From: a virus
IMG/VR virus record: IMGVR_UViG_3300025120_000162
Span: 1 to 40,146 of that record
Length of the DNA stretch: 40,146 nucleotides
Reading direction: 5' to 3' (one strand)
The position numbers and the translations under genes were made by a program. Positions 896 to 39,719 of the stretch are shown in pieces. The notes beneath the pieces are model-generated. The model did no database searches. It saw nothing but the letters and a program-made list of their open reading frames with translations, and was not told where the DNA came from. Every line of letters starts with the position of its first letter. Positions within the stretch are counted from its first letter, which is position 1.

Positions 896-1696
896 ATGTT
901 ACGATTTCGAACATTTGATATGATAAGGGAAATGTCAATGGGTGCAGAATTAGAAATGGATATGGATTTTCTTCGGAGAGCTGAAAGAGTATCATCGTTT
1001 AATTTAATTGAAAAAGACTTTCAGTCAAATACATATCAAAAAGAAATTAGATACTTATATACAAAAAACTTTTTTCCTAATTTTGATCAAAAGTTTTTTG
1101 TTAAGGCTCCTACTAAAGATGGACTTAACAAAGCTATCACTGCTTTAAAACAAGAAAGCCGAAGAAGCTTTGAAGCATTACATAATTTTCGTCCGGGTGG
1201 AACGGGGCCGGCTGAAGTACTTCTTTTCTTTTTAATTGATGGTGCTCAACTAGGTGGTGCCGGTTCTGCAGGAATGGATTTATTTGTTAATCGAAAAGGT
1301 TATGAGATGAAATCTGTGCATGTATCTACTGATGGATTTATAAAAGATTTTAAGCTAGGTGGTACTGCTAACTTATCTGGAATAATAAATGAAAGTATAG
1401 CTTTAAAAAGAAAAGCTGATCCTAGAGCATCAAACAAACCGGGTGAAATTAATAAGACACAACAAGACAAGATTGCTAGAATGTTTCCAACACAATGGAA
1501 AAATATACAAAAGAAATTTCGAAAAGAAGCTGCAGATTATTTTGGAGACACAAATATAATTTTTACTCGTAGTAAATCAAATAAAGCTCAAATGGGGAAT
1601 GTTTTAGGAATAGGAACTGTTCCGGAACGGGCTATAGAAATTGATATGTTTACTAGTGGAACTATTAAACCTCTTATTAGAGTGAGCGATATGTAA
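896..1696 (+). CDS. PD-(D/E)XK nuclease-like protein with capsid-targeting-like N-terminus
   Basis: I chose ATG 896 over the in-frame GTG at 884 because GGAG at 886-889 lies six bases before 896. The product has 266 residues. The N-terminus MLRFRTFDMIREMSM resembles the leader shared by downstream genes, with a possible gp21 site after MIRE. The core carries a PD-(D/E)XK-like constellation: Glu107 in GPAEVLLFFL, Asp128 in GMDLF, and E137-x-K139 in YEMKSV. The glycine-rich GGAGSAG before Asp128 and the strand-turn-strand spacing agree with that fold. The C-terminal third is basic and may bind DNA. The first gene after a late promoter, it shares its stop base with the next start (TAATG). The nuclease assignment is by motif only; a non-catalytic virion protein is the main alternative. 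Confidence 0.6.
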   Translation: MLRFRTFDMIREMSMGAELEMDMDFLRRAERVSSFNLIEKDFQSNTYQKEIRYLYTKNFFPNFDQKFFVKAPTKDGLNKAITALKQESRRSFEALHNFRPGGTGPAEVLLFFLIDGAQLGGAGSAGMDLFVNRKGYEMKSVHVSTDGFIKDFKLGGTANLSGIINESIALKRKADPRASNKPGEINKTQQDKIARMFPTQWKNIQKKFRKEAADYFGDTNIIFTRSKSNKAQMGNVLGIGTVPERAIEIDMFTSGTIKPLIRVSDM

Positions 1697-2922
1697 TGAA
1701 GTTTGTTGAATATATAACTGAACAAAAGAATACTCATATGACTCATATAGAAGACAAGGTAGTCTATGGTGGAGTCAAAGGAACTAGAGACGCGATCATG
1801 GCATTGCGTTCTCTCAGAGATATGCTAGGAGGCGTACATGATGGAAATGTTAGTGTCAAATGGGATGGTGCTCCTGCTGTGTTTGCTGGGATCGACCCTA
1901 GTGATGGTAGATTCTTCGTGGCGAAAAAGGGGATCTTTAACAAATCTCCCAAAGTATACAAGAGTAATGCTGATATTGATGCTGATACTAGCGGCGATCT
2001 CAGTACAAAGCTTAAGCTCGCTTTACAGTATCTACCCGAGCTAGGAATCAAAGGAGTAGTCCAAGGTGATTTTCTGTATAGTAAAGCGGATCTTAAAACA
2101 CAAAAAATCAAAAATAAATCGTATGTTACGTTCCACCCCAATACAATCTTATATGCAGTACCGGCTGGCACGGACATGGCCGGGGAAATTAAGGCAGCAA
2201 AGATTGGAATCGTGTGGCATACGAGCTACACAGGAAACTCATTCGAAGGAATGAAGCAAAGCTTTGGTGTAGATATATCTAAATTTAAAAAATCAAAGAA
2301 TGTATGGTCACAAGATGCTATGCTTCGAGATTTGACTCGATATACTATGACACAAAAAGATACAGAAGAAGTAAATGAACACCTAAGGAATGCAGGATTT
2401 ATATTCAATAAGATTGCAGGCAACACGCTTAGGCAATTAGAAAAGAATAAAATCCTTACACAATTGATTGAGCAACATACAAATTCATATGTACGGTTGC
2501 AGGCAATGCCACCTGATCCAGCCAAAAGAGTAGATGCTCTTATAAAGTTTATTCAACAGAAGTATAAAAAAGAAATTGATAAAAGATCTACTGATCAAGG
2601 TAAAGATTCACAACGATTAAAACTTGGTGAGATACTAAATTTCTTTTCAAGTAAAAATAAAACAGCACTAAAAAATATATTTGAATTACAAAGATCTATA
2701 ATTCTAGCAAAACTAAAACTTATAAATATACTTAATCAGCTACAGTCTGTAAGGGCTTTCTTAAAAACTAAACGAGGGTTTAGAACTACGGGCCAAGAAG
2801 GATATGTAGCAATTGACAAACTTGGTAGTGATGCAGTGAAAATTGTGGACCGTATGGAGTTCTCATACGCAAACTTTTCACCCAATATATTAAAAGGATG
2901 GGATACACCAGGAAGGAACTAA
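1696..2922 (+). CDS. DNA/RNA ligase-like nucleotidyltransferase (DUF6267-like) with capsid-targeting-like leader
   Basis: The 408-residue product opens MKFVEYITEQKN, matching the local leader with a potential gp21 cut after YITE. Residues 53-64 (SVKWDGAPAVFA) contain K55-W-D-G58, the motif I lysine signature of covalent nucleotidyltransferases (DNA/RNA ligases, capping enzymes). The other expected blocks follow in order: GDF near 124-126 (motif III-like), YVTFHPNTI at 143-151 (IIIa-like), IGIVWHT at 170-176 (IV-like) and a lysine-rich KFKKSK at 196-201 (V-like). The C-terminal half is helical, Lys-rich and unassigned. I recall such phage proteins as the uncharacterised family DUF6267. Adenylation or ligation is inferred from the motifs. 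The first 550 bases use more GC-rich codons than the remainder. Confidence 0.7.
   Translation: MKFVEYITEQKNTHMTHIEDKVVYGGVKGTRDAIMALRSLRDMLGGVHDGNVSVKWDGAPAVFAGIDPSDGRFFVAKKGIFNKSPKVYKSNADIDADTSGDLSTKLKLALQYLPELGIKGVVQGDFLYSKADLKTQKIKNKSYVTFHPNTILYAVPAGTDMAGEIKAAKIGIVWHTSYTGNSFEGMKQSFGVDISKFKKSKNVWSQDAMLRDLTRYTMTQKDTEEVNEHLRNAGFIFNKIAGNTLRQLEKNKILTQLIEQHTNSYVRLQAMPPDPAKRVDALIKFIQQKYKKEIDKRSTDQGKDSQRLKLGEILNFFSSKNKTALKNIFELQRSIILAKLKLINILNQLQSVRAFLKTKRGFRTTGQEGYVAIDKLGSDAVKIVDRMEFSYANFSPNILKGWDTPGRN
2721..2728 (+). promoter_or_regulatory. Possible internal late promoter (TATAAATA)
   Basis: An exact TATAAATA box lies inside the ligase-like gene, about 200 bases before the next start at 2925. 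It could raise late expression of the following basic proteins. In AT-rich coding sequence a chance match is also possible, so support is weaker than for the intergenic boxes. Confidence 0.4.
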
Positions 2923-2924
2923 CG

Positions 2925-3479
2925 ATGGCAGAAAAACTGCTGCGCTTTAAAGATTTATACATGGCTGAATACCGGCCGGGTGAAGATGAGCTTACAAATT
3001 ATCGTGCATATAAACGTAAGAGACATATGTACGAAGCTACAAAAATGATATGTAAAGATTGTGGTGATGAACAAGGTAAGCCAACGACTGATTGTCCACA
3101 CGATTGTAGTGGTGGTCCACACTTTGCTCCACAAGATGACGATGGTAAATCTACTGTTGAAGCATTAACTCTTCAACAACGAATGGCTAAATCCCGACAG
3201 CTTAAGCGAATGAAAGCCAAGATCAAAATTGGCCGTGATCGCGCTAAACGAAAAATGGCTGACACTAAAAAATTAAGAAGTAGAGCACGTAAACAAGCTC
3301 GTACATTTATTCTTAAGAAACTTACTAAGGGTAAAGGTAAGAGTGAGTTATCATTTGCCCGTAGAGCAGAACTAGAAAAACGTATGGCTGCTCCTGCTGT
3401 AAAGAAAAGAATAGATATGTTTGCTAAACGTATGTTTAAAGATGTTCGTAAAAAAGAAGTTGAGAGAAAAAAGGGTTAA
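2925..3479 (+). CDS. Basic internal-protein-like protein with cysteine cluster
   Basis: The frame is open from an ATG at 2898, but GGAAGGA at 2911-2917 is correctly spaced for ATG 2925, giving 184 residues. The N-terminus MAEKLLRFKDLYMAEYRPGE carries the local leader slightly inset, with YMAE as possible gp21 site. Residues of about 35-55 hold a cysteine cluster (CKDCGDE, then CPHDCSGGPH) that could bind zinc. From about residue 70 onward the protein is extremely rich in Lys and Arg (LTLQQRMAKSRQLKRMKAKI; KRKMADTKKLRSRARKQAR) and predicted helical, like a DNA-condensing core protein. This basic region recurs in marine T4-like phages in my memory, without known function. It shares its last base with the next start. 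Confidence 0.7.
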   Translation: MAEKLLRFKDLYMAEYRPGEDELTNYRAYKRKRHMYEATKMICKDCGDEQGKPTTDCPHDCSGGPHFAPQDDDGKSTVEALTLQQRMAKSRQLKRMKAKIKIGRDRAKRKMADTKKLRSRARKQARTFILKKLTKGKGKSELSFARRAELEKRMAAPAVKKRIDMFAKRMFKDVRKKEVERKKG

Positions 3480-4702
3480 TGAGTTATTCGTTTAAAACTT
3501 TTCTAGCTGAAGAAGAAAAGCGGGTTTATTTTACCTTTGGTAGAATGAATCCACCTACTATTGGTCATGGAAAACTTCTAGAGAAGTTAGCAACATTAGC
3601 CGGTAATAATCAATATCGAGTTTATCTGTCTCAATCACAAGATAGTAAAGATAATCCATTACAATATAATGATAAGATAAAGATTGCACGGAAAATGTTT
3701 CCTCGTTATGCACGTCGAATCATGTTAAACAAAAAAATTAAAACAGTATTCGATGCTCTACAATCATTATATGATGAAGGTTTTGTTAATGTGGTTATGG
3801 TTGTAGGTTCTGATCGTGTTAACGAATTTGATATTCTTATCAAAAAGTATAATGGCAAAAAAGCTAAACATGGTCTTTATAACTTTCGAAGAATAGATGT
3901 TGTTTCTGCAGGTCAAAGAGATCCTGATGCTAAGGGAGCTGAAGGAGCATCTGCAACAAAACAAAGAGATGCTGCAAGAGCAAATGACTTTACAACATTT
4001 AGCCAAGGATTACCTAGAGTTGTAAATAACTTTGATGCTAAGAAGATCTTCAATAGTGTCCGTAAAGGCATGGGACTTAAAGAACAAAAAGAATTCAAGA
4101 ATCATATACAATTAGAATCAGTGAATGAAACAAGAGAATCATATGTAAGTGGTGAATTATACAAAGTTGGTGATCAAGTAATTATAAAAAATACCGAAGA
4201 GATAGCTGAAGTCAAAGTATGTGGCGCAAACTATGTTATTGTAGAAACGGCTAATGGTCAATACCGAAAATGGTTGGAGGCAATTGAACCTATGGAAGAA
4301 GGACTATGGGCAAACATCCGTGCACGTCGTGCAGCAGGTAAGCCAAAGAAAAAACCTGGGCAAAAAGGTTATCCTAAAACTCTTGATATTGAAAGTGCTG
4401 CTTATCATAAAGGTGTATCTAAATCTACATCTGATAAAAGGAAAGCACACTTTAGCAAGAATGCTAAAAAGGCTGATAACGATGCTTCTGCATATAAACC
4501 AGCACCTGGTGATAAGACAGCTAAAACAAAAACAAGTGTACATACTAAAAGATTCAAACAAATGTTTGGTGAATCTGAAATGCAAGCTATAGCAAAAAAG
4601 AAAATTGACCGCGAAAAAGAAATCGATAAAATTAAACACGATCGAATGTTAGACCGTGCTCGAACAAGAGATACCACAAAGAAAAATAAGGAAACAAAAT
4701 GA
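3479..4702 (+). CDS. NMN-adenylyltransferase-like nucleotidyltransferase fused to a basic tail, with capsid-targeting-like leader
   Basis: The 407-residue product starts MSYSFKTFLAEEEKR, a leader with a gp21-type site FLAE. Directly after it comes a HIGH-superfamily nucleotidyltransferase: FTFGRMNPPTIGH at residues 18-30, with T27-x-G-H30 as nucleotide-binding signature, VMVVGSDR near 106-113, and SATKQRDAA near 158-166 in the place of the ISSTxxR motif. This is the layout of nicotinamide-nucleotide adenylyltransferases, which join NMN and ATP to make NAD+. Residues of about 222-272 form a small beta-rich KOW/SH3-like segment (YKVGDQVIIKN; KVCGANYVIVETANG). The rest is Lys/Arg-rich (WANIRARRAAGKPKKKPGQK). 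Related cytidylyltransferase activity cannot be excluded. Start and stop are tightly coupled to both neighbours (TAATG, ATGA). Confidence 0.75.
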   Translation: MSYSFKTFLAEEEKRVYFTFGRMNPPTIGHGKLLEKLATLAGNNQYRVYLSQSQDSKDNPLQYNDKIKIARKMFPRYARRIMLNKKIKTVFDALQSLYDEGFVNVVMVVGSDRVNEFDILIKKYNGKKAKHGLYNFRRIDVVSAGQRDPDAKGAEGASATKQRDAARANDFTTFSQGLPRVVNNFDAKKIFNSVRKGMGLKEQKEFKNHIQLESVNETRESYVSGELYKVGDQVIIKNTEEIAEVKVCGANYVIVETANGQYRKWLEAIEPMEEGLWANIRARRAAGKPKKKPGQKGYPKTLDIESAAYHKGVSKSTSDKRKAHFSKNAKKADNDASAYKPAPGDKTAKTKTSVHTKRFKQMFGESEMQAIAKKKIDREKEIDKIKHDRMLDRARTRDTTKKNKETK

Positions 4703-4950
4703 TTAGATTTAGTCAATATCTTTCGGAAGAAGAAAAGAAAGGTTTAGCAGCTAAGGCTGAAAAATCAGGTATGCCGATTGGTATACTACGTAAAGTCTAT
4801 AATCGTGGTATGGCAGCATGGAAAACTGGTCATAGGCCAGGGACAACACCACAACAATGGGCTATGGCTCGAGTCAATTCGTTTACAACTAAATCCTCAG
4901 GCACTTGGGGAAAGGCAGATAAAGATCTGGCCGCAAAGGTAAGAGGATAA
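4699..4950 (+). CDS. DUF5824-like small basic protein with capsid-targeting-like leader
   Basis: The product has 83 residues: leader MIRFSQYLSEEEKK with a gp21-type site YLSE, then a compact domain beginning KGLAAKAEKSGMPIGIL and continuing VYNRGMAAWKTGHRPG and QQWAMARVNSF. These blocks match a small domain found in many phage proteins that I recall as DUF5824; its function is not established. A terminal acidic/basic segment WGKADKDLAAKVRG completes it. The gene overlaps the upstream stop by four bases and is followed one base later by the next start. The clean join of leader and domain suggests a cargo domain that has acquired a targeting signal. Confidence 0.75.
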   Translation: MIRFSQYLSEEEKKGLAAKAEKSGMPIGILRKVYNRGMAAWKTGHRPGTTPQQWAMARVNSFTTKSSGTWGKADKDLAAKVRG

Positions 4951-4951
4951 A

Positions 4952-5785
4952 ATGAAAAAATTCAAACAAATACGAGAAGAAGCAAATCATCTATTTGAAA
5001 TGGAAATGCTTACTCATAAGAAAAAGATAGCTGCAACAGGTGCAAAACTAAAAGCCGTACAACAGAAGCATACTGATGCGACCAAAAAACATTTTGATCT
5101 TGCAAATAAAGCGATAGAAAGTTTGGAAAAAACTCATAAAAACCTTACTCATTCTGAACGTTCAGATCATAACTCTGTTAGAGCGCATGTAATTCGTGCT
5201 AGATATCACAAAGATGCGGCAAAATCCGATTATCACGATCATCGCCACGCACCGACCTATGGCAATGACAACTGGCAGAAAAAACATATATCAAGCAAGG
5301 ACGTCAAACATTCAGAAAGGCTACATAAAGAATTAGCAAGTGCTCATGCTGCTCATGATGCTGCTAAGAAAAATAGCCCTGCAGGGAAACTGAAATCTCT
5401 TGGTAATAAGATAAAAAGTAAGTTAACAAGCGAACAGAATGAGCTAGATGAATTAAGTAACAAAACGCTAGATTCATATTCTGATAAAGCTGATAGACAA
5501 TATGCATTGTCTAGAAAAAGACATAATGATGATGATTATACAGCTAAAAAGCAAGCTATGCATAAAAATCGTTTAAGAAAACGTCATAAAGGTCTTGGTT
5601 CATTTTACAAAAGGGATGATGCTCGTCAAAATCCAGATGGTAGCCACGCAGCAAAATATATGCATAAGTATAGTGCGGGTAAAAGAATTAGCACTGGTAA
5701 GGGAGGTATGTTTGGTGGAGATACACTAAGAAATAAACCTTCTTCAGCATTACCTAAAACTTACAGAGATCCAAATAGGAAGTAA
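4952..5785 (+). CDS. Lys/His-rich coiled-coil internal-protein-like protein
   Basis: The 277-residue product starts MKKFKQIREEANHLFEMEM, with QIRE as a possible gp21 site. Residues of about 25-150 are a long helical, Lys/His/Ala-rich region (HTDATKKHFDLANKAIESLE) with coiled-coil character. Residues of about 164-230 carry a module LDELSNKTLDSYSDKADRQ followed by a basic region, which recurs twice in the next gene. The C-terminus is basic and glycine-containing, ending PKTYRDPNRK. It lies one base after the upstream stop. The composition fits a prohead core or internal protein packaged with DNA; no enzyme motif is visible. Confidence 0.7.
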   Translation: MKKFKQIREEANHLFEMEMLTHKKKIAATGAKLKAVQQKHTDATKKHFDLANKAIESLEKTHKNLTHSERSDHNSVRAHVIRARYHKDAAKSDYHDHRHAPTYGNDNWQKKHISSKDVKHSERLHKELASAHAAHDAAKKNSPAGKLKSLGNKIKSKLTSEQNELDELSNKTLDSYSDKADRQYALSRKRHNDDDYTAKKQAMHKNRLRKRHKGLGSFYKRDDARQNPDGSHAAKYMHKYSAGKRISTGKGGMFGGDTLRNKPSSALPKTYRDPNRK

Positions 5786-5787
5786 AA

Positions 5788-6789
5788 ATGAAAACATTCG
5801 ATCAAATTAGAGAAGGTTATGCATCTATGGCTCAACAACGAGCTGTATGGGCTACTCGTAAAGATGGTGGTAAAGGTCATCCGGATAATAAAAGAAAAAG
5901 AAAAAAAGAAGATATGGATGAAGTCAAGTCTGCTGACAAAAAACCTGAAAAGTATATTGCAGCTGATGGTAAAACAAAAATCCGTATGGTTCCAGTTGTT
6001 AAAGAACAAGATGAAGTCAATGAATTAGACACCTCTACTTTAGTTTCTTATAGAAAAAAAGCTAATAAGCAAAGATATAGCAATAACATTTCAAAGAGAA
6101 CTCAGAGAACTGCCGGTGTTGATGCTGCTGATAAAAAGTTGAGAAAACGCAATATCGATAAATTTGGTAAACACTCTCCAAAGGGTGTTGATAAAATGGG
6201 TAATCCTAAAGAAGATACTTCCGATGCAGTAAAAGCATTCCTTGCTAAAGGCGGTAAGATTAAAAAGCTTCCACCAGCAAAAGCTCAAGGTTACCATGGT
6301 AAAGATGATCCGGGTAAAGATGTGCACGGTGTAATGGATAAACCTGACACAAAGCGAATGGGTACTCGTAAAAAAGTCAAGTCCATGGAAGCAATGATAC
6401 CAACTGATAAAGGACCATTTGGTATTCAACCAAAGGCAGCTGTCAAAGTAATTAAAAAAGGAAAAGAAGTCAAGGAAATCTCTAGAGATACTAAAAAGAA
6501 TTACATCAAAAAAGCTGCAGATGATATGAGTAAACAGGCAGACAAAATGGCTCGAGCTCAACGCGGCGATGGCAAAATGGACAAGGCAGTTAATAAGTTT
6601 GTTAATCGTCGTAAAGGCATTGCACGTGCTGTAGAAGCTAAAGAGACAGATCCGCCATTCGATGATGCTAAAAAAATATCTACAACTCCAGCTAAAGATC
6701 AGTTCGGCAATATCATTAAGAACCGAGCAAAGCATCTTGCAAGGCAAGCCGCTAAGAAAGCTGGTGGCGATATGGGAGACAAGAAATGA
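5788..6789 (+). CDS. Highly basic internal-protein-like protein with two copies of the SYxxKA module
   Basis: The 333-residue product starts MKTFDQIREGYASMAQQ, with QIRE as possible gp21 site. It is extremely Lys-rich (GHPDNKRKRKKEDMDEVK) and has no membrane segment. Two related helical modules are visible: VNELDTSTLVSYRKKANKQ near residues 76-95, and VKEISRDTKKNYIKKAADDM near 227-246, the latter followed by KFVNRRKGIARAVEAKE. Both match the module in the upstream gene. A further block KPEKYIAADGKTKIRMVPV near residues 51-69 recalls small segments in other marine phage proteins. Repeated basic helices imply nucleic-acid contact. The gene overlaps the next start by four bases. A DNA-associated core or injected protein is inferred, not shown. 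Confidence 0.7.
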   Translation: MKTFDQIREGYASMAQQRAVWATRKDGGKGHPDNKRKRKKEDMDEVKSADKKPEKYIAADGKTKIRMVPVVKEQDEVNELDTSTLVSYRKKANKQRYSNNISKRTQRTAGVDAADKKLRKRNIDKFGKHSPKGVDKMGNPKEDTSDAVKAFLAKGGKIKKLPPAKAQGYHGKDDPGKDVHGVMDKPDTKRMGTRKKVKSMEAMIPTDKGPFGIQPKAAVKVIKKGKEVKEISRDTKKNYIKKAADDMSKQADKMARAQRGDGKMDKAVNKFVNRRKGIARAVEAKETDPPFDDAKKISTTPAKDQFGNIIKNRAKHLARQAAKKAGGDMGDKK

Positions 6790-7475
6790 AATCGTTTAAA
6801 TCTTTTTACGAAGATCTAACATTTAAGGTAGAGGTTGAAGGGCTGCCGGCTATGTGGATGTCTGGTAATTCGCCAGGTCAAGTAAAGAACCATCTTCGTA
6901 AATTGGTTAAGCAACCATCAATGATTAAGTCTGTAAAACGGCAGACTAAATTTGATGTAAAGAAAATGTACCGCGATAAAGCTCAGGGCAAAGAAGTTGA
7001 TGAAATGACTCAACAGAGTAAGACTCATCCTAATCTTAAGATTGCTATAGGTAAATCTGCGCAATCAGCAAAAGATACAAAAGCTCGGACAGATAAAAGA
7101 AAAGCAAATAAGCAGGGTACATCCTTAGCTGCTGGTACTGCATGTGAAGCTACATCTGGTGAAGTTGATTATGGATCTGATAAGTCAGTTAAGATGATGA
7201 AGAAAGTTACACCTAACGAAGCATGTTGGGATAGTCATAAGCAAGTTGGTATGAAGAAGAAAGGTAACCGAATGGTTCCTAATTGTGTACCAAAGAATGA
7301 AGATGTAAAAGAAAAACTTACAATTGGTAAGATTCGTAAAGCAGCATATAAAACTGCAAAAGTTCTTGGTGATGTTAATGCTGTTAAAAAAGGTAAAGTA
7401 GCTAGACGAGTAAAAAATAGAGTTGTCGGTAAGATGCTCGGTAAAGCAGTTAGCAAATTAGGATTGTTCAGGTAA
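6786..7475 (+). CDS. Basic internal-protein-like protein with CW...NCVP motif
   Basis: The 229-residue product starts MKSFKSFYEDLTFKVEVEG. The leader resembles its neighbours but reads FYED instead of [I/L]-x-E, so cleavage is less certain. Residues of about 10-60 form a small mixed alpha/beta region (VEGLPAMWMSGNSPGQVKNH). Residues of about 144-170 hold the block ACWDSHKQVGMKKKGNRMV followed by PNCVPKNE, a short cysteine-containing element I have seen repeatedly in marine phage proteins of unknown role. The last 60 residues are strongly basic (KKGKVARRVKNRVVGKMLGK). It shares its last base with the next ATG (TAATG). Function unknown; context suggests packaged cargo. Confidence 0.65.
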   Translation: MKSFKSFYEDLTFKVEVEGLPAMWMSGNSPGQVKNHLRKLVKQPSMIKSVKRQTKFDVKKMYRDKAQGKEVDEMTQQSKTHPNLKIAIGKSAQSAKDTKARTDKRKANKQGTSLAAGTACEATSGEVDYGSDKSVKMMKKVTPNEACWDSHKQVGMKKKGNRMVPNCVPKNEDVKEKLTIGKIRKAAYKTAKVLGDVNAVKKGKVARRVKNRVVGKMLGKAVSKLGLFR

Positions 7476-7762
7476 TGGAAAGATTCAAAACGTTTATAGA
7501 AGCTCGTGGTGAAGATTCAAAGGGTCATAAAAGATCTACTGCATCAGGCGCTGGTCTTACACAAAAAGGTGTAGATGCCTATAATAGAAAAACTGGTGGC
7601 AATCTAAAAACTGCGGTGACTGGTAAAGTTAAGCGTGGTAGTAAAGCTGCAGGTAGAAGGAAATCATTTTGTGCTCGCATGGGTGGCATGCCGGGACCAA
7701 TGAAAGATGAGAAAGGTAGACCTACACGTAAGGCAATGTCTTTACGTCGATGGAAATGTTAG
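7475..7762 (+). CDS. DUF6321-like small basic protein with leader
   Basis: The 95-residue product starts MERFKTFIEARGEDSKGHK; the leader FKTFIEA is close to the consensus but lacks Glu in the last position. The remainder is one compact basic domain: GAGLTQKGVDAYNRKTGGNL, then RRKSFCARMGGMPGPMKDE, GRPTRKAMSLRRWKC. I recall this arrangement as the uncharacterised phage family DUF6321. Its two cysteines (FCAR and final WKC) could pair or bind metal. This is the last gene of the leader-bearing run. The next gene begins five bases later with a membrane-type N-terminus and no leader. Confidence 0.75.
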   Translation: MERFKTFIEARGEDSKGHKRSTASGAGLTQKGVDAYNRKTGGNLKTAVTGKVKRGSKAAGRRKSFCARMGGMPGPMKDEKGRPTRKAMSLRRWKC

Positions 7763-23721: not shown

Positions 23722-23937
23722 ATGTTAACATTTACTCAACTAAGAGAAAAGATGGAGAAGGGCATGCCGCCTGGTGAACATGTTTTCGATAAAAAAGTTG
23801 ATGGTAAAACTTTAATGATCCACAAAGAAAAAGGCAAATTTTGTGTATACATTGATATGGAAAAACTAGATACGTATCCTACTTTAGGTATGGCAAAAAA
23901 AGCCGGCCAAGAATTTATAAAGGCAGCAAAGAAATGA
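23722..23937 (+). CDS. Prohead core protein at the gp68 position, with capsid-targeting-like leader
   Basis: The 71-residue product starts MLTFTQLREKMEKGMPPGEH, matching the leader of the genes at 896-7762 with a gp21-type site QLRE. The remainder is a small basic beta-alpha domain: HVFDKKVDGKTLMIHKEKGK, FCVYIDMEKLDTYPTL, AKKAGQEFIKAAKK. In T4 the slot between 67 and 21 holds gp68, a prohead core protein of 141 residues; this product is half as long, and similarity cannot be claimed from sequence alone. The overlap with gp21 (ATGA) and the leader support a core component processed by gp21. Confidence 0.7.
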   Translation: MLTFTQLREKMEKGMPPGEHVFDKKVDGKTLMIHKEKGKFCVYIDMEKLDTYPTLGMAKKAGQEFIKAAKK

Positions 23938-24584
23938 AACTGATTGCAGAATATACAGATCAAAGTTTAGAGATTCTCACCGAAGAAAAAGAAGGTGGTG
24001 GGAAAAGTTATTCTATTGAAGGCGTGTTCATGCAAGCAGAACAAAAGAATCGTAACGGTCGAATATATCCAAAGCCTATCATGGAAAAAGCACTCGGTAA
24101 ATATAATACAGAGCAAGTTTCAAAAGGTAGAGCAGTCGGTGAGTTAAACCACCCTGAAGGACCGACCGTTAATTTAGACAAAGTTTCTCACAAGATCGAA
24201 TCCCTTGATTGGAAAGGTAATGATGTTGTGGGCAAAGCGACTATTTTGGAAACTCCTATGGGACAAATTGTAAAAGGTTTGCTCGATGGTGGTGTCAGAT
24301 TAGGCGTTTCAACTCGTGGTATGGGAAGCTTGCAGAACAATGGTAACGCAATGGTCGTCAAAGACGACTTTATTCTTAATGCGGTAGACATCGTTCAAGA
24401 TCCATCTGCACCTAGCGCTTTTGTTAATGGAGTTATGGAAGGTGTTGAATGGGTTTGGAATAACGGAATCATTGAACCACAAGCAATTGAAATAATGGAG
24501 ACTGAAATTAAGAAAGCTCCTCGTGCGGATCTCTATGAGACACAAGTTCGTGAGTTTAAGAATTTCCTCTCGTTGCTCAAATAG
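23934..24584 (+). CDS. 21: Prohead core scaffold protein and protease gp21
   Basis: The 216-residue product (T4 gp21: 212) is the serine protease of the herpesvirus-assemblin fold that digests the scaffold and trims gp23 and internal proteins after [L/I]-x-E. Catalytic-type residues are His73 in GELNHPEGP and Ser126 in GVSTRGMGSL. A conserved Asp-rich block KDDFILNAVDIVQDPSAP occupies residues 143-160. The N-terminus reads EYTDQSLEILTEEKEG and may be self-cleaved. It is coupled to the preceding gene by ATGA and followed by gp22 after 18 bases. This enzyme is the expected processor of the leader-bearing proteins at 896-7762. Confidence 0.95.
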   Translation: MKLIAEYTDQSLEILTEEKEGGGKSYSIEGVFMQAEQKNRNGRIYPKPIMEKALGKYNTEQVSKGRAVGELNHPEGPTVNLDKVSHKIESLDWKGNDVVGKATILETPMGQIVKGLLDGGVRLGVSTRGMGSLQNNGNAMVVKDDFILNAVDIVQDPSAPSAFVNGVMEGVEWVWNNGIIEPQAIEIMETEIKKAPRADLYETQVREFKNFLSLLK

Positions 24585-37499: not shown

Positions 37500-39719
37500 A
37501 TGCAAACACCGTTTGTAGACACCAGAGAGTTTTTATCGCAAACTAAATTTTACGAAGGATACTCTCGGTTTAAAGAGACCGGTAACGGCGGTTATGAGTC
37601 ATGGGATGAATCGGTAGATCGAGTTATTACCATGCATGAAGAAAATTATAATGAAGCCGCAGATAAATTGGGCCCGTATTTGCAAGAAGCTCGTACTGCT
37701 TATAAAGAGCAAAGGGTACTAGGCGCACAACGAGCTTTACAGTTTGGTGGTGAACAACTACTTAAACATCAAATGCGCATGTATAATTGCACATCATCTT
37801 ATGCTGATCGCGCAGAATTCTTTGGTGAGTTCTTTTATATTCTATTATGTGGTGCTGGTGCTGGATTTTCTGTACAACAACATCACGTAGCTAAATTTCC
37901 ACAAATTCAAGGAAGGACTAAGCAAGCTAAGGGTTATATTGTAGAAGACTCTATTGAAGGTTGGGCTTCAGCCCTCGACGTGTTGATGTCTTCTTACTTT
38001 GTATCTGGTGGTAAGTTCCCAGAGTATGAAGGCCGTAGAGTATTCTTTGATCTAACTAATATTAGACCAAAGGGTGCTAAAATTTCAGGTGGATTTAAAG
38101 CTCCTGGGCCAGAAGGTTTACGTAAAGCATTGGATAAGATTGAACTCTTATTGCAAAATCAAGTTATTGATTCAAAAGAACCTGTTAAACTAAAACCAAT
38201 TACTGTATACGACATCTGCATGCATGCGGCTGATGCAGTATTATCTGGTGGTGTTCGTCGTTCAGCTACTATTTGTTTGTTCTCACCAGAAGATGATGAG
38301 ATGATGAATGCAAAAACCGGTAACTGGTTTATGGATAACGCTCAACGCGGTAGATCTAATAACTCAGCAGTGATTGTTCGTGATGAGGCAACACCTGAAA
38401 TGTTTGCTAAGATTATGGAATCAGTGAAATCATTTGGTGAGCCAGGATTCTACTTTACAACTTCAAAAGAACATACAACTAATCCTTGTGTTGAGATTGG
38501 AATGTATCCACAATACGAAGGTGAGTCTGGATGGCAAGGTTGTAACCTTACAGAAATCAATGGTGGCATGTGTAAAACACCAGAAGATTTTTATCTAGCA
38601 TGTAAAGCTGGTGCTATACTTGGTACACTACAAGCAGGTTATACAGACTTTAAGTTTCTTTCTCCAGTATCTAAAAAGATCTTTGATCGTGAAGCATTAT
38701 TGGGTGTATCAGTTACTGGTTGGATGAACAATCCTGAAGTACTCTTTGATGCTAAGGTTCTTGAAAAAGGAGCTAAAATTGTTAAGAAAATTAATAGAGA
38801 GGTTGCTGCTATCATTGGCATTAATCCTGCTGCTCGGACTACATGTGTTAAACCAAGCGGTAACGCAAGCGTCCTCTTACAAACAGCAAGTGGTATCCAC
38901 GCCGAACATTCCCCAATGTACATCCGTAACATCCAAATGAATAAAGAATCTGAAATTACGCAATCGATTATCAAATCAAATCCGTATATGGTTGAAGAAT
39001 CAGTATGGTCTGCTAATGGTACTGATGTAGTAATTTCGTATCCTATTGTACCACATAAAGGTTCAATGTATAAGGATGATCTTATTGGTGTTAAACATCT
39101 TGAGCTCGTTAAGAAAGCTCAAAAGCATTGGGTTATTGCTGGTACAAATGAAGAGCTATGTGCTGATGAAGGTATCCGTCATAATGTATCAAATACAATT
39201 ATTGTAGATGATTGGGATGAAGTAGAAAAATATGTATTTGAGAATCGGTATTCTTTCTCAGGTATTTCATTCCTTAGTATGTCAGGTGATAAAGATTACA
39301 ACCAAGCACCAAACACTGCAGTGATTGATGAAAAGCAAATGGTAAAGCTATATGGAGCCGCATCAATCTTTGCATCAGGCTTAGTAGTAGATGCTATGAA
39401 AGTATTCCCTAACTTGTGGGATGCTTGTTCTACTGCTCAAGGTATGGGAATGGACATTAGTCTAGAATCATCAGAAAACTCAGCACGGCAAGATTGGGTA
39501 CGCCGGTTTGAAAACTTTGCAAATAACTATCTAGACGGCGATATTAAGAAAACAGAATATTGTTTAAAAGATGCTTACCTTATGCACAAATGGAATAAGA
39601 TTCAGCAATATTTGCAAATGCCAAATTGGAATCATGATTTGACAGAACAAGTATTTACTGATGTAGATACTATGGGTGCTGCTGCCTGTGCAGGCGGAGC
39701 CTGTGAAATTGACTTCTAG
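37500..39719 (+). CDS. nrdJ: Class II (adenosylcobalamin-dependent) ribonucleotide reductase, monomeric NrdJ type
   Basis: The 739-residue product reduces ribonucleoside triphosphates to deoxy forms, supplying dNTPs for phage replication. It matches the monomeric class II enzyme (Lactobacillus leichmannii RTPR, also 739 residues). The likely redox cysteine is Cys97 in MYNCTSSYADR; the radical site is N328-P-C330-V-E332; the partner cysteine is probably Cys348 in GWQGCNLTEING; and the C-terminal shuttle pair is Cys730/Cys735 in AACAGGACEIDF. VLSGGVRRSATICLFS near 248-263 and NPAARTTCVKPSGNASVLLQ further on are typical reductase blocks. Class II enzymes need vitamin B12 but no oxygen or second subunit, and are common in marine phages. 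It has its own sigma70-type promoter. GAGGT at 37495-37499 is the ribosome-binding site. Confidence 0.94.
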   Translation: MQTPFVDTREFLSQTKFYEGYSRFKETGNGGYESWDESVDRVITMHEENYNEAADKLGPYLQEARTAYKEQRVLGAQRALQFGGEQLLKHQMRMYNCTSSYADRAEFFGEFFYILLCGAGAGFSVQQHHVAKFPQIQGRTKQAKGYIVEDSIEGWASALDVLMSSYFVSGGKFPEYEGRRVFFDLTNIRPKGAKISGGFKAPGPEGLRKALDKIELLLQNQVIDSKEPVKLKPITVYDICMHAADAVLSGGVRRSATICLFSPEDDEMMNAKTGNWFMDNAQRGRSNNSAVIVRDEATPEMFAKIMESVKSFGEPGFYFTTSKEHTTNPCVEIGMYPQYEGESGWQGCNLTEINGGMCKTPEDFYLACKAGAILGTLQAGYTDFKFLSPVSKKIFDREALLGVSVTGWMNNPEVLFDAKVLEKGAKIVKKINREVAAIIGINPAARTTCVKPSGNASVLLQTASGIHAEHSPMYIRNIQMNKESEITQSIIKSNPYMVEESVWSANGTDVVISYPIVPHKGSMYKDDLIGVKHLELVKKAQKHWVIAGTNEELCADEGIRHNVSNTIIVDDWDEVEKYVFENRYSFSGISFLSMSGDKDYNQAPNTAVIDEKQMVKLYGAASIFASGLVVDAMKVFPNLWDACSTAQGMGMDISLESSENSARQDWVRRFENFANNYLDGDIKKTEYCLKDAYLMHKWNKIQQYLQMPNWNHDLTEQVFTDVDTMGAAACAGGACEIDF

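Follow-up and report, generated by a model that had tools for sequence, protein, structure and literature searches.

What does the gene at 1696-2922 encode, given that its family, DUF6267, has no known function in either Pfam or PHROGs and is named in no paper found by literature search? The window, i.e., the whole stretch of DNA that was analysed (40,146 nucleotides), covers part of a T4-type phage genome; among its recognised products are the head maturation protease, portal, terminase, sheath, scaffold and major head protein. A ribonucleotide reductase gene lies past the block of structural genes, at 37500-39719 (phrog_367, E 1.4e-92). The gene in question is an unbroken open reading frame on the plus strand with an ATG start, and the N-terminus of its product is MKFVEYITEQKNTHMTH. 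The parts of the gene that bear on the question are as follows.

1696..2922, plus strand: DUF6267 protein of 408 amino acids, a predicted ligase-like covalent nucleotidyltransferase (open reading frame, Pfam match, AlphaFold2 model)
1696..1722, plus strand: capsid-targeting-type leader MKFVEYITE, with a predicted gp21 cut after E9 (conservation pattern; residues 1-12 disordered in the model)
1858..1878, plus strand: motif I, K55-W-D57-G58-A-P60-A (K, D, G and P each in 217/217 sequences)
2062..2070, plus strand: motif III equivalent, Q123-G-D125 (alignment; strand at residues 121-129 in the model)
2203..2229, plus strand: motif IIIa candidate, IGIVWH175T176SY178 (H175 in 217/217 sequences, T176 in 216/217)
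2317..2745, plus strand: helical insertion (about residues 208-350) that separates motif IIIa from motif IV (modelled secondary structure)
2797..2808, plus strand: motif IV, E368-G-Y-V371 (E and G in 215/215 ungapped rows)
2839..2853, plus strand: motif V equivalent, K382-I-V-D-R386 (K382 in 215/215 ungapped rows)

The Pfam family DUF6267 (PF19782) is matched by the protein over its full length (residues 12-396, E 8.6e-100), with a score of 335 bits against a curated cut-off of 27, which confirms the family name given in a preliminary description of this DNA. The protein also matches phrog_455, a group of unknown function. Among the phage records searched, 468 contain a relative; most of these are from marine Synechococcus and Prochlorococcus phages, and DUF6267 is also found in a few phages of Vibrio, Xanthomonas, Pelagibacter and others; a search of viral contigs from the Vibrio member gave no matches. 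A CbiA match of the protein and its matches to helical DnaK-like proteins were judged to be due to chance or to helical bundles.

Conservation was followed in an alignment of 217 DUF6267 sequences, taken from named phages and from viral and genome contigs. There are 27 columns in this alignment that are at least 98.5% conserved, and these include K55, D57, G58, D125, H175-T176, E368-G369 and K382. Residue 125 is acidic in all 217 homologues, being Glu in one of them; Asp stands here where Glu is usual in the ligase superfamily. The position of the second motif V lysine is V384 (V in 212/217, I in 3), giving K-x-V-x-R, whereas most ligases have K-x-K. Along the chain, motifs I, III and IIIa come first in the family, then the helical insertion, which is shorter in compact relatives, and then motifs IV and V; the assignment of motif IIIa is that of a candidate. 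The preliminary description had placed KWDG in the context of motif I, and this is borne out at residues 55-58 by the invariance of K, D and G. It had also listed motifs III, IIIa, IV and V in order within 150 residues; of these, the acidic residue of motif III and the motif IIIa candidate with its invariant histidine stand, but motifs IV and V had been placed too early, as their conserved equivalents, E368GYV and K382IVDR, are beyond the helical insertion. The early candidates for motifs IV and V (residues 183-202, with FEG at 183-185 and KFK at 196-198) are unconserved: Gly is seldom found in the column of G185, K196 is present in 119/217 sequences and K198 in 103/217. Thus, the KxDG, the motif III acid, the E-G of motif IV, the motif V lysine and the core fold (see below) of the covalent nucleotidyltransferase superfamily, i.e., ligases and capping enzymes, are all found in the protein, and the residues conserved in DUF6267 correspond, as judged from the alignment, to the catalytic residues of the ligase-type members.

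An AlphaFold2 model of the protein, built with 92 sequences, has a pLDDT of 91.3 and a pTM of 0.87. When VIA-align was run on Foldseek's top 1000, the best structural matches of this model were RNA editing ligase 1 (Z 8.7 over 192 residues) and the Naegleria RNA ligase (Z 8.0), followed by T4 Rnl2 (Z 7.8), the entries for these three enzymes near the top of the list spanning Z 8.7-7.7; DNA ligase I and tRNA ligases came next. DnaK-type chaperones made up the other group of matches, in which only about 70-86 helical residues matched. The list given by Foldseek alone for the full-length model was uninformative, because the helical part dominated it; this problem was overcome by a compact relative (297 amino acids, record L265, 31% identical to the window protein), which was modelled separately with a pLDDT of 93.4. 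The best 21 Foldseek matches of the compact model are all ligases, with weak E-values, no Foldseek E-value being below 0.001, and all 50 VIA matches listed for it are RNA or DNA ligases. The first of these is the Naegleria RNA ligase (Z 8.7, rmsd 3.8, 174 residues, 12% identity), and after it come T4 Rnl1, T4 Rnl2 and RNA editing ligase 1. Z-scores of 8-9 are moderate and pertain to predicted models, which is offset by two separate models pointing to one superfamily and by the conservation of the catalytic residues. As both models match the ligase-type nucleotidyltransferase core, and not an unrelated fold, the ligase-like interpretation of the preliminary description is supported, apart from its placement of motifs IV and V. 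The fold and active site of DUF6267 are, at the level of these models, very probably those of a ligase-type covalent nucleotidyltransferase. Nothing follows the core: there are only 22 residues after R386, with one helix at 386-394, and therefore no OB-fold or RNA-binding domain downstream.

Sequence comparison does not extend as far. A PDB sequence search with the protein and two family profiles returned chance matches only, profile-profile comparison (hhalign) with seven T4 Rnl2-type sequences gave no match, and Pfam searches of 31 DUF6267 members, together with NCBIfam, found no ligase family. In these 31 members there is no profile similarity to the Rnl1/Rnl2 families (PF09511, PF09414) and no match to the NAD+-dependent DNA ligases (PF01653). 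The K-x-K of motif V in the Rnl1/Rnl2 families is replaced by K382-x-V384, and the OB-fold with motif VI that follows the core of ATP-dependent DNA ligases (PF01068) is lacking in the window protein. Since sequence methods reach no ligase family, DUF6267 is a remote one, and the models predict that it is a new family among the covalent nucleotidyltransferases of the ligase type.

T4 Rnl2, a fold match to the window model as is the trypanosome RNA editing ligase 1, has K-x-H-G as motif I, whereas DUF6267 has KxDG and is without the Rnl2-type C-terminal domain. The RNA ligase of Naegleria gruberi, to which the compact model has its best fold match, shares with DUF6267 a core that is located C-terminally; unlike it, DUF6267 has no separate N-terminal domain and no second motif V lysine, and has the helical insertion. 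RLIG1 (human C12orf29 and its viral relatives) is a 5'-3' RNA ligase that consists of the core without an RNA-binding domain and has a KxDG motif I; the viral RLIG1 has a His in motif IIIa, one Lys is named in motif V, and the top Dali match is the Naegleria RNA ligase (PMC11494293). The bare core, KxDG, motif IIIa His, single motif V Lys and closeness to the Naegleria ligase are thus common to RLIG1 and DUF6267, a comparison drawn from published motifs and not from superposition. DUF6267 differs in that no sequence similarity to RLIG1 was found, in its large helical insertion, and in being encoded by phages together with a capsid leader and partner genes; RLIG1 is absent from the structural matches listed for the DUF6267 models.

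The N-terminus of the protein resembles those of T4 proteins that are packaged into the head. The T4 internal proteins IPIII and IPII begin with MKTYQEFIAE, the reference leader, of which the first 10 residues are enough for targeting, positions 4 and 7 being important for targeting and positions 8 and 10 for cleavage (PMC9026906). The spacing in the window protein (F3, Y6, I7, E9) is that of T4. Among 145 relatives that are 50-85% identical to the window protein, F3 is identical in 92%, E9 in 94% and I7 in 70%, whereas residues 2 and 4-6 drift (3-37% identical, against 66% for the body of the protein). Residue 7 is kept as I or L in DUF6267 leaders; conservation resumes at K11-N12, just past the predicted cut, and the linker from the Glu to KNTH is variable in length. 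The element [LI]-x-E is in the leader of 159 of the 183 long-type members, and cyanophage-type members are without a leader. Of the 46 genes in the window, 3 match a strict leader pattern (aromatic-xx-aromatic-[LIV]-x-E close to the start), compared with 0.03 expected from shuffled N-termini (1/5000 shuffles), and 9 match a looser pattern, compared with 1.2 expected. The window also encodes a gp21-type protease (listed below), so that both the leader pattern and the protease of T4-type capsid-targeted proteins are present. The capsid-targeting leader with a gp21 cut at YITE, which the preliminary description had predicted, therefore gains from family-wide conservation, from shuffling and from the gp21 gene, and it is likely, judging by these sequence patterns, that the protein is targeted to the capsid in the clade of the window. 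T4 IPII, IPIII and Alt have the same type of short leader (aromatic-xx-aromatic-[LI]-x-E); however, unlike the protein predicted here, none of them is a ligase: the T4 internal proteins are small and basic, and Alt is an ADP-ribosyltransferase.

Similar leaders are carried by the products of several genes around DUF6267, which are listed here together with a further neighbour and the protease gene.

896..1696, plus strand: candidate PD-(D/E)XK nuclease (invariant D and E-x-K; motif level only)
2898..3479, plus strand: gene between those of the two transferases, for a small basic protein of 193 amino acids that has a Cys/His cluster, CKDC...CPHDC (sequence)
3479..4702, plus strand: HIGH-superfamily nucleotidyltransferase of the T4-GC190 type (motifs GRMNPPTIGH and SATKQR; leader MSYSFKTFLAE)
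4699..4950, plus strand: small protein whose leader is MIRFSQYLSE (match to phrog_3041, in its C-terminal part)
4952..7762, plus strand: four more genes whose products begin in a looser leader-like way, with MKKFKQIREE, MKTFDQIREG, MKSFKSFYED and MERFKTFIEA (loose pattern)
23934..24584, plus strand: gp21-type head maturation protease, candidate leader-cutting enzyme (phrog_207, E 2.7e-78)

New here are the similar leaders, recognised as sequence patterns, on the downstream HIGH-type nucleotidyltransferase and on the upstream gene with the PD-(D/E)XK signature. Small genes at 4699-7762 and at 23722-23937 have leader-like N-termini as well, and possibly encode further packaged proteins.

The association of DUF6267 with the HIGH-type nucleotidyltransferase (G-R-F/M-N-P-P-T-x-G-H), relatives of which are annotated as cytidyltransferase, is widespread: of 248 loci that could be tested, 220 have the latter at most 3.5 kb downstream. 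Fusions of the two occur in phages metaG-MbCM1 (728 amino acids) and S-PM2 (591 amino acids), and in the Vibrio T4-type phage EniLVp02 the nucleotidyltransferase is the gene next to DUF6267 and is joined to a UvsW.1 domain. The metaG-MbCM1 fusion (L089 4007-6193) is annotated as a ribonucleotide reductase subunit, apparently a misannotation, and its junction bears the leader-like MKKFSAFLSEAE. The T4-GC190 cyanophage cytidyltransferase is thus both neighbour and fusion partner of DUF6267, but has a different enzyme fold; purified S-SM1 virions contain the T4-GC190 cyanophage protein (PMC3037559). When the PDB was searched with the sequence of the partner nucleotidyltransferase, the only matches were spurious ones to lysozyme.

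The upstream open reading frame was listed from a GTG at 884, and its likely start is the ATG at 896, which gives the leader MLRFRTFDMIRE. In ten relatives of its product, GPxE, D and ExK are invariant (D131, E140 and K142 in A6 numbering), which makes it a candidate PD-(D/E)XK nuclease, and most of the aligned relatives begin with a leader (e.g. MQRFRTYLKE). Across loci, the slot upstream of DUF6267 is filled by many sequence clusters without BLAST links to each other; an invariant D...[E/S]-x-K is found in 7 of the 10 upstream clusters with enough members, compared with 3 of 22 control clusters, and the strict leader in 45 of 141 upstream open reading frames of long-type loci, compared with 0.3 by shuffling. 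Sequence searches with the upstream protein gave no matches, nor did a PADLOC search for a role in defence.

The explanation that we consider probable is that the protein is an ATP-dependent ligase-type enzyme, which is packaged and injected with its partners in order to process the ends of nucleic acids. The leader would load the protein into the core of the prohead, gp21 would trim it after E9, and the protein would be injected with the DNA. K55 would attack ATP to form lysyl-AMP, with D57, D125, E368 and K382 positioning the nucleotide and metal; the AMP would then move to a 5'-phosphate end and the strand would be sealed. Joining of polynucleotides is a reasonable expectation, held a little less firmly, and the substrate could be a DNA nick, an RNA nick or a tRNA end; sealing of nicks in incoming DNA, which the preliminary description had suggested, is a hypothesised role. 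The downstream nucleotidyltransferase, and probably the upstream nuclease, would be partners in a set for end-processing and joining from the first moments of infection, and a joint role of the three may be supposed.

The top structural matches are RNA ligases, and RLIG1 is likewise a core without an RNA-binding domain that has KxDG and the motif IIIa His (PMC11494293), so the protein could specifically be an RNA ligase for the repair of tRNA, or of other RNA, that host defences have cut, in the way of T4 Rnl1/Rnl2 or RLIG1. This narrower reading is doubtful: the upstream partner resembles PD-(D/E)XK enzymes, which usually act on DNA, two DUF6267 phages already have ligases of the Rnl1 and Rnl2 types, and the cyanophage copies are among genes for DNA replication, where uvsX and gp41 precede them by a few genes. 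That location, and the gp41-type helicase and primase which adjoin DUF6267 in the Vibrio phage, would suit instead the DNA ligase of these phages, standing in for T4 gp30 in replication and repair. In 11 of 13 DUF6267 phage genomes tested, none of PF01068, PF09414, PF01653 and PF09511 was matched (PF01653 in none of the 13), although the same profiles detected all three ligases of T4, the positive control. However, the Vibrio phage EniLVp02 and the Xanthomonas phage XaC1 have DUF6267 as well as ordinary ligases, including an ATP DNA ligase, and therefore DUF6267 does not simply take the place of one known ligase. Together with the missing OB-fold, and a leader that suggests action at injection in the clade of the window, this renders a stand-in for gp30 unlikely.

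Two readings depart further from nucleic acid joining. The very tight link to the HIGH-type enzyme, from a superfamily that acts mostly on small molecules, and the injection of Alt, a protein-modifying enzyme of T4, by the same capsid-targeting route (PMC9026906) would be in keeping with adenylation of a protein, cofactor or small molecule, e.g. in NAD/cofactor metabolism or host takeover; but every structural neighbour in the list for the compact model is a polynucleotide ligase and no more cofactor-pathway genes are recognised beside DUF6267 in the window, so that such a target seems improbable. That the protein is a structural component of the head which merely keeps a ligase-like fold, as its leader and its proximity to head genes in the window might suggest, is hard to reconcile with catalytic residues that stay invariant even in highly diverged members, leaderless ones among them, and we regard it as very unlikely.

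For the packaged ligase-type enzyme, then, the leader tags on the ligase-like protein, on the neighbouring nucleotidyltransferase and on the probable nuclease imply that the virus may deliver an end-joining kit. Perhaps, and this is put forward tentatively, marine T4-type phages load a kit of three enzymes (a fast-diversifying PD-(D/E)XK nuclease, a single-core ligase and a HIGH-type nucleotidyltransferase) into the head by means of capsid-targeting leaders and inject it together with the genome, such that cutting and joining would precede expression of phage genes. The assignment to the ligase type gives an abundant gene of marine phages a testable activity and makes DUF6267 a candidate for the ligase that these phages otherwise seem to be without. 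It also points to enzymes delivered from the phage head beyond the Alt and IP proteins of T4.
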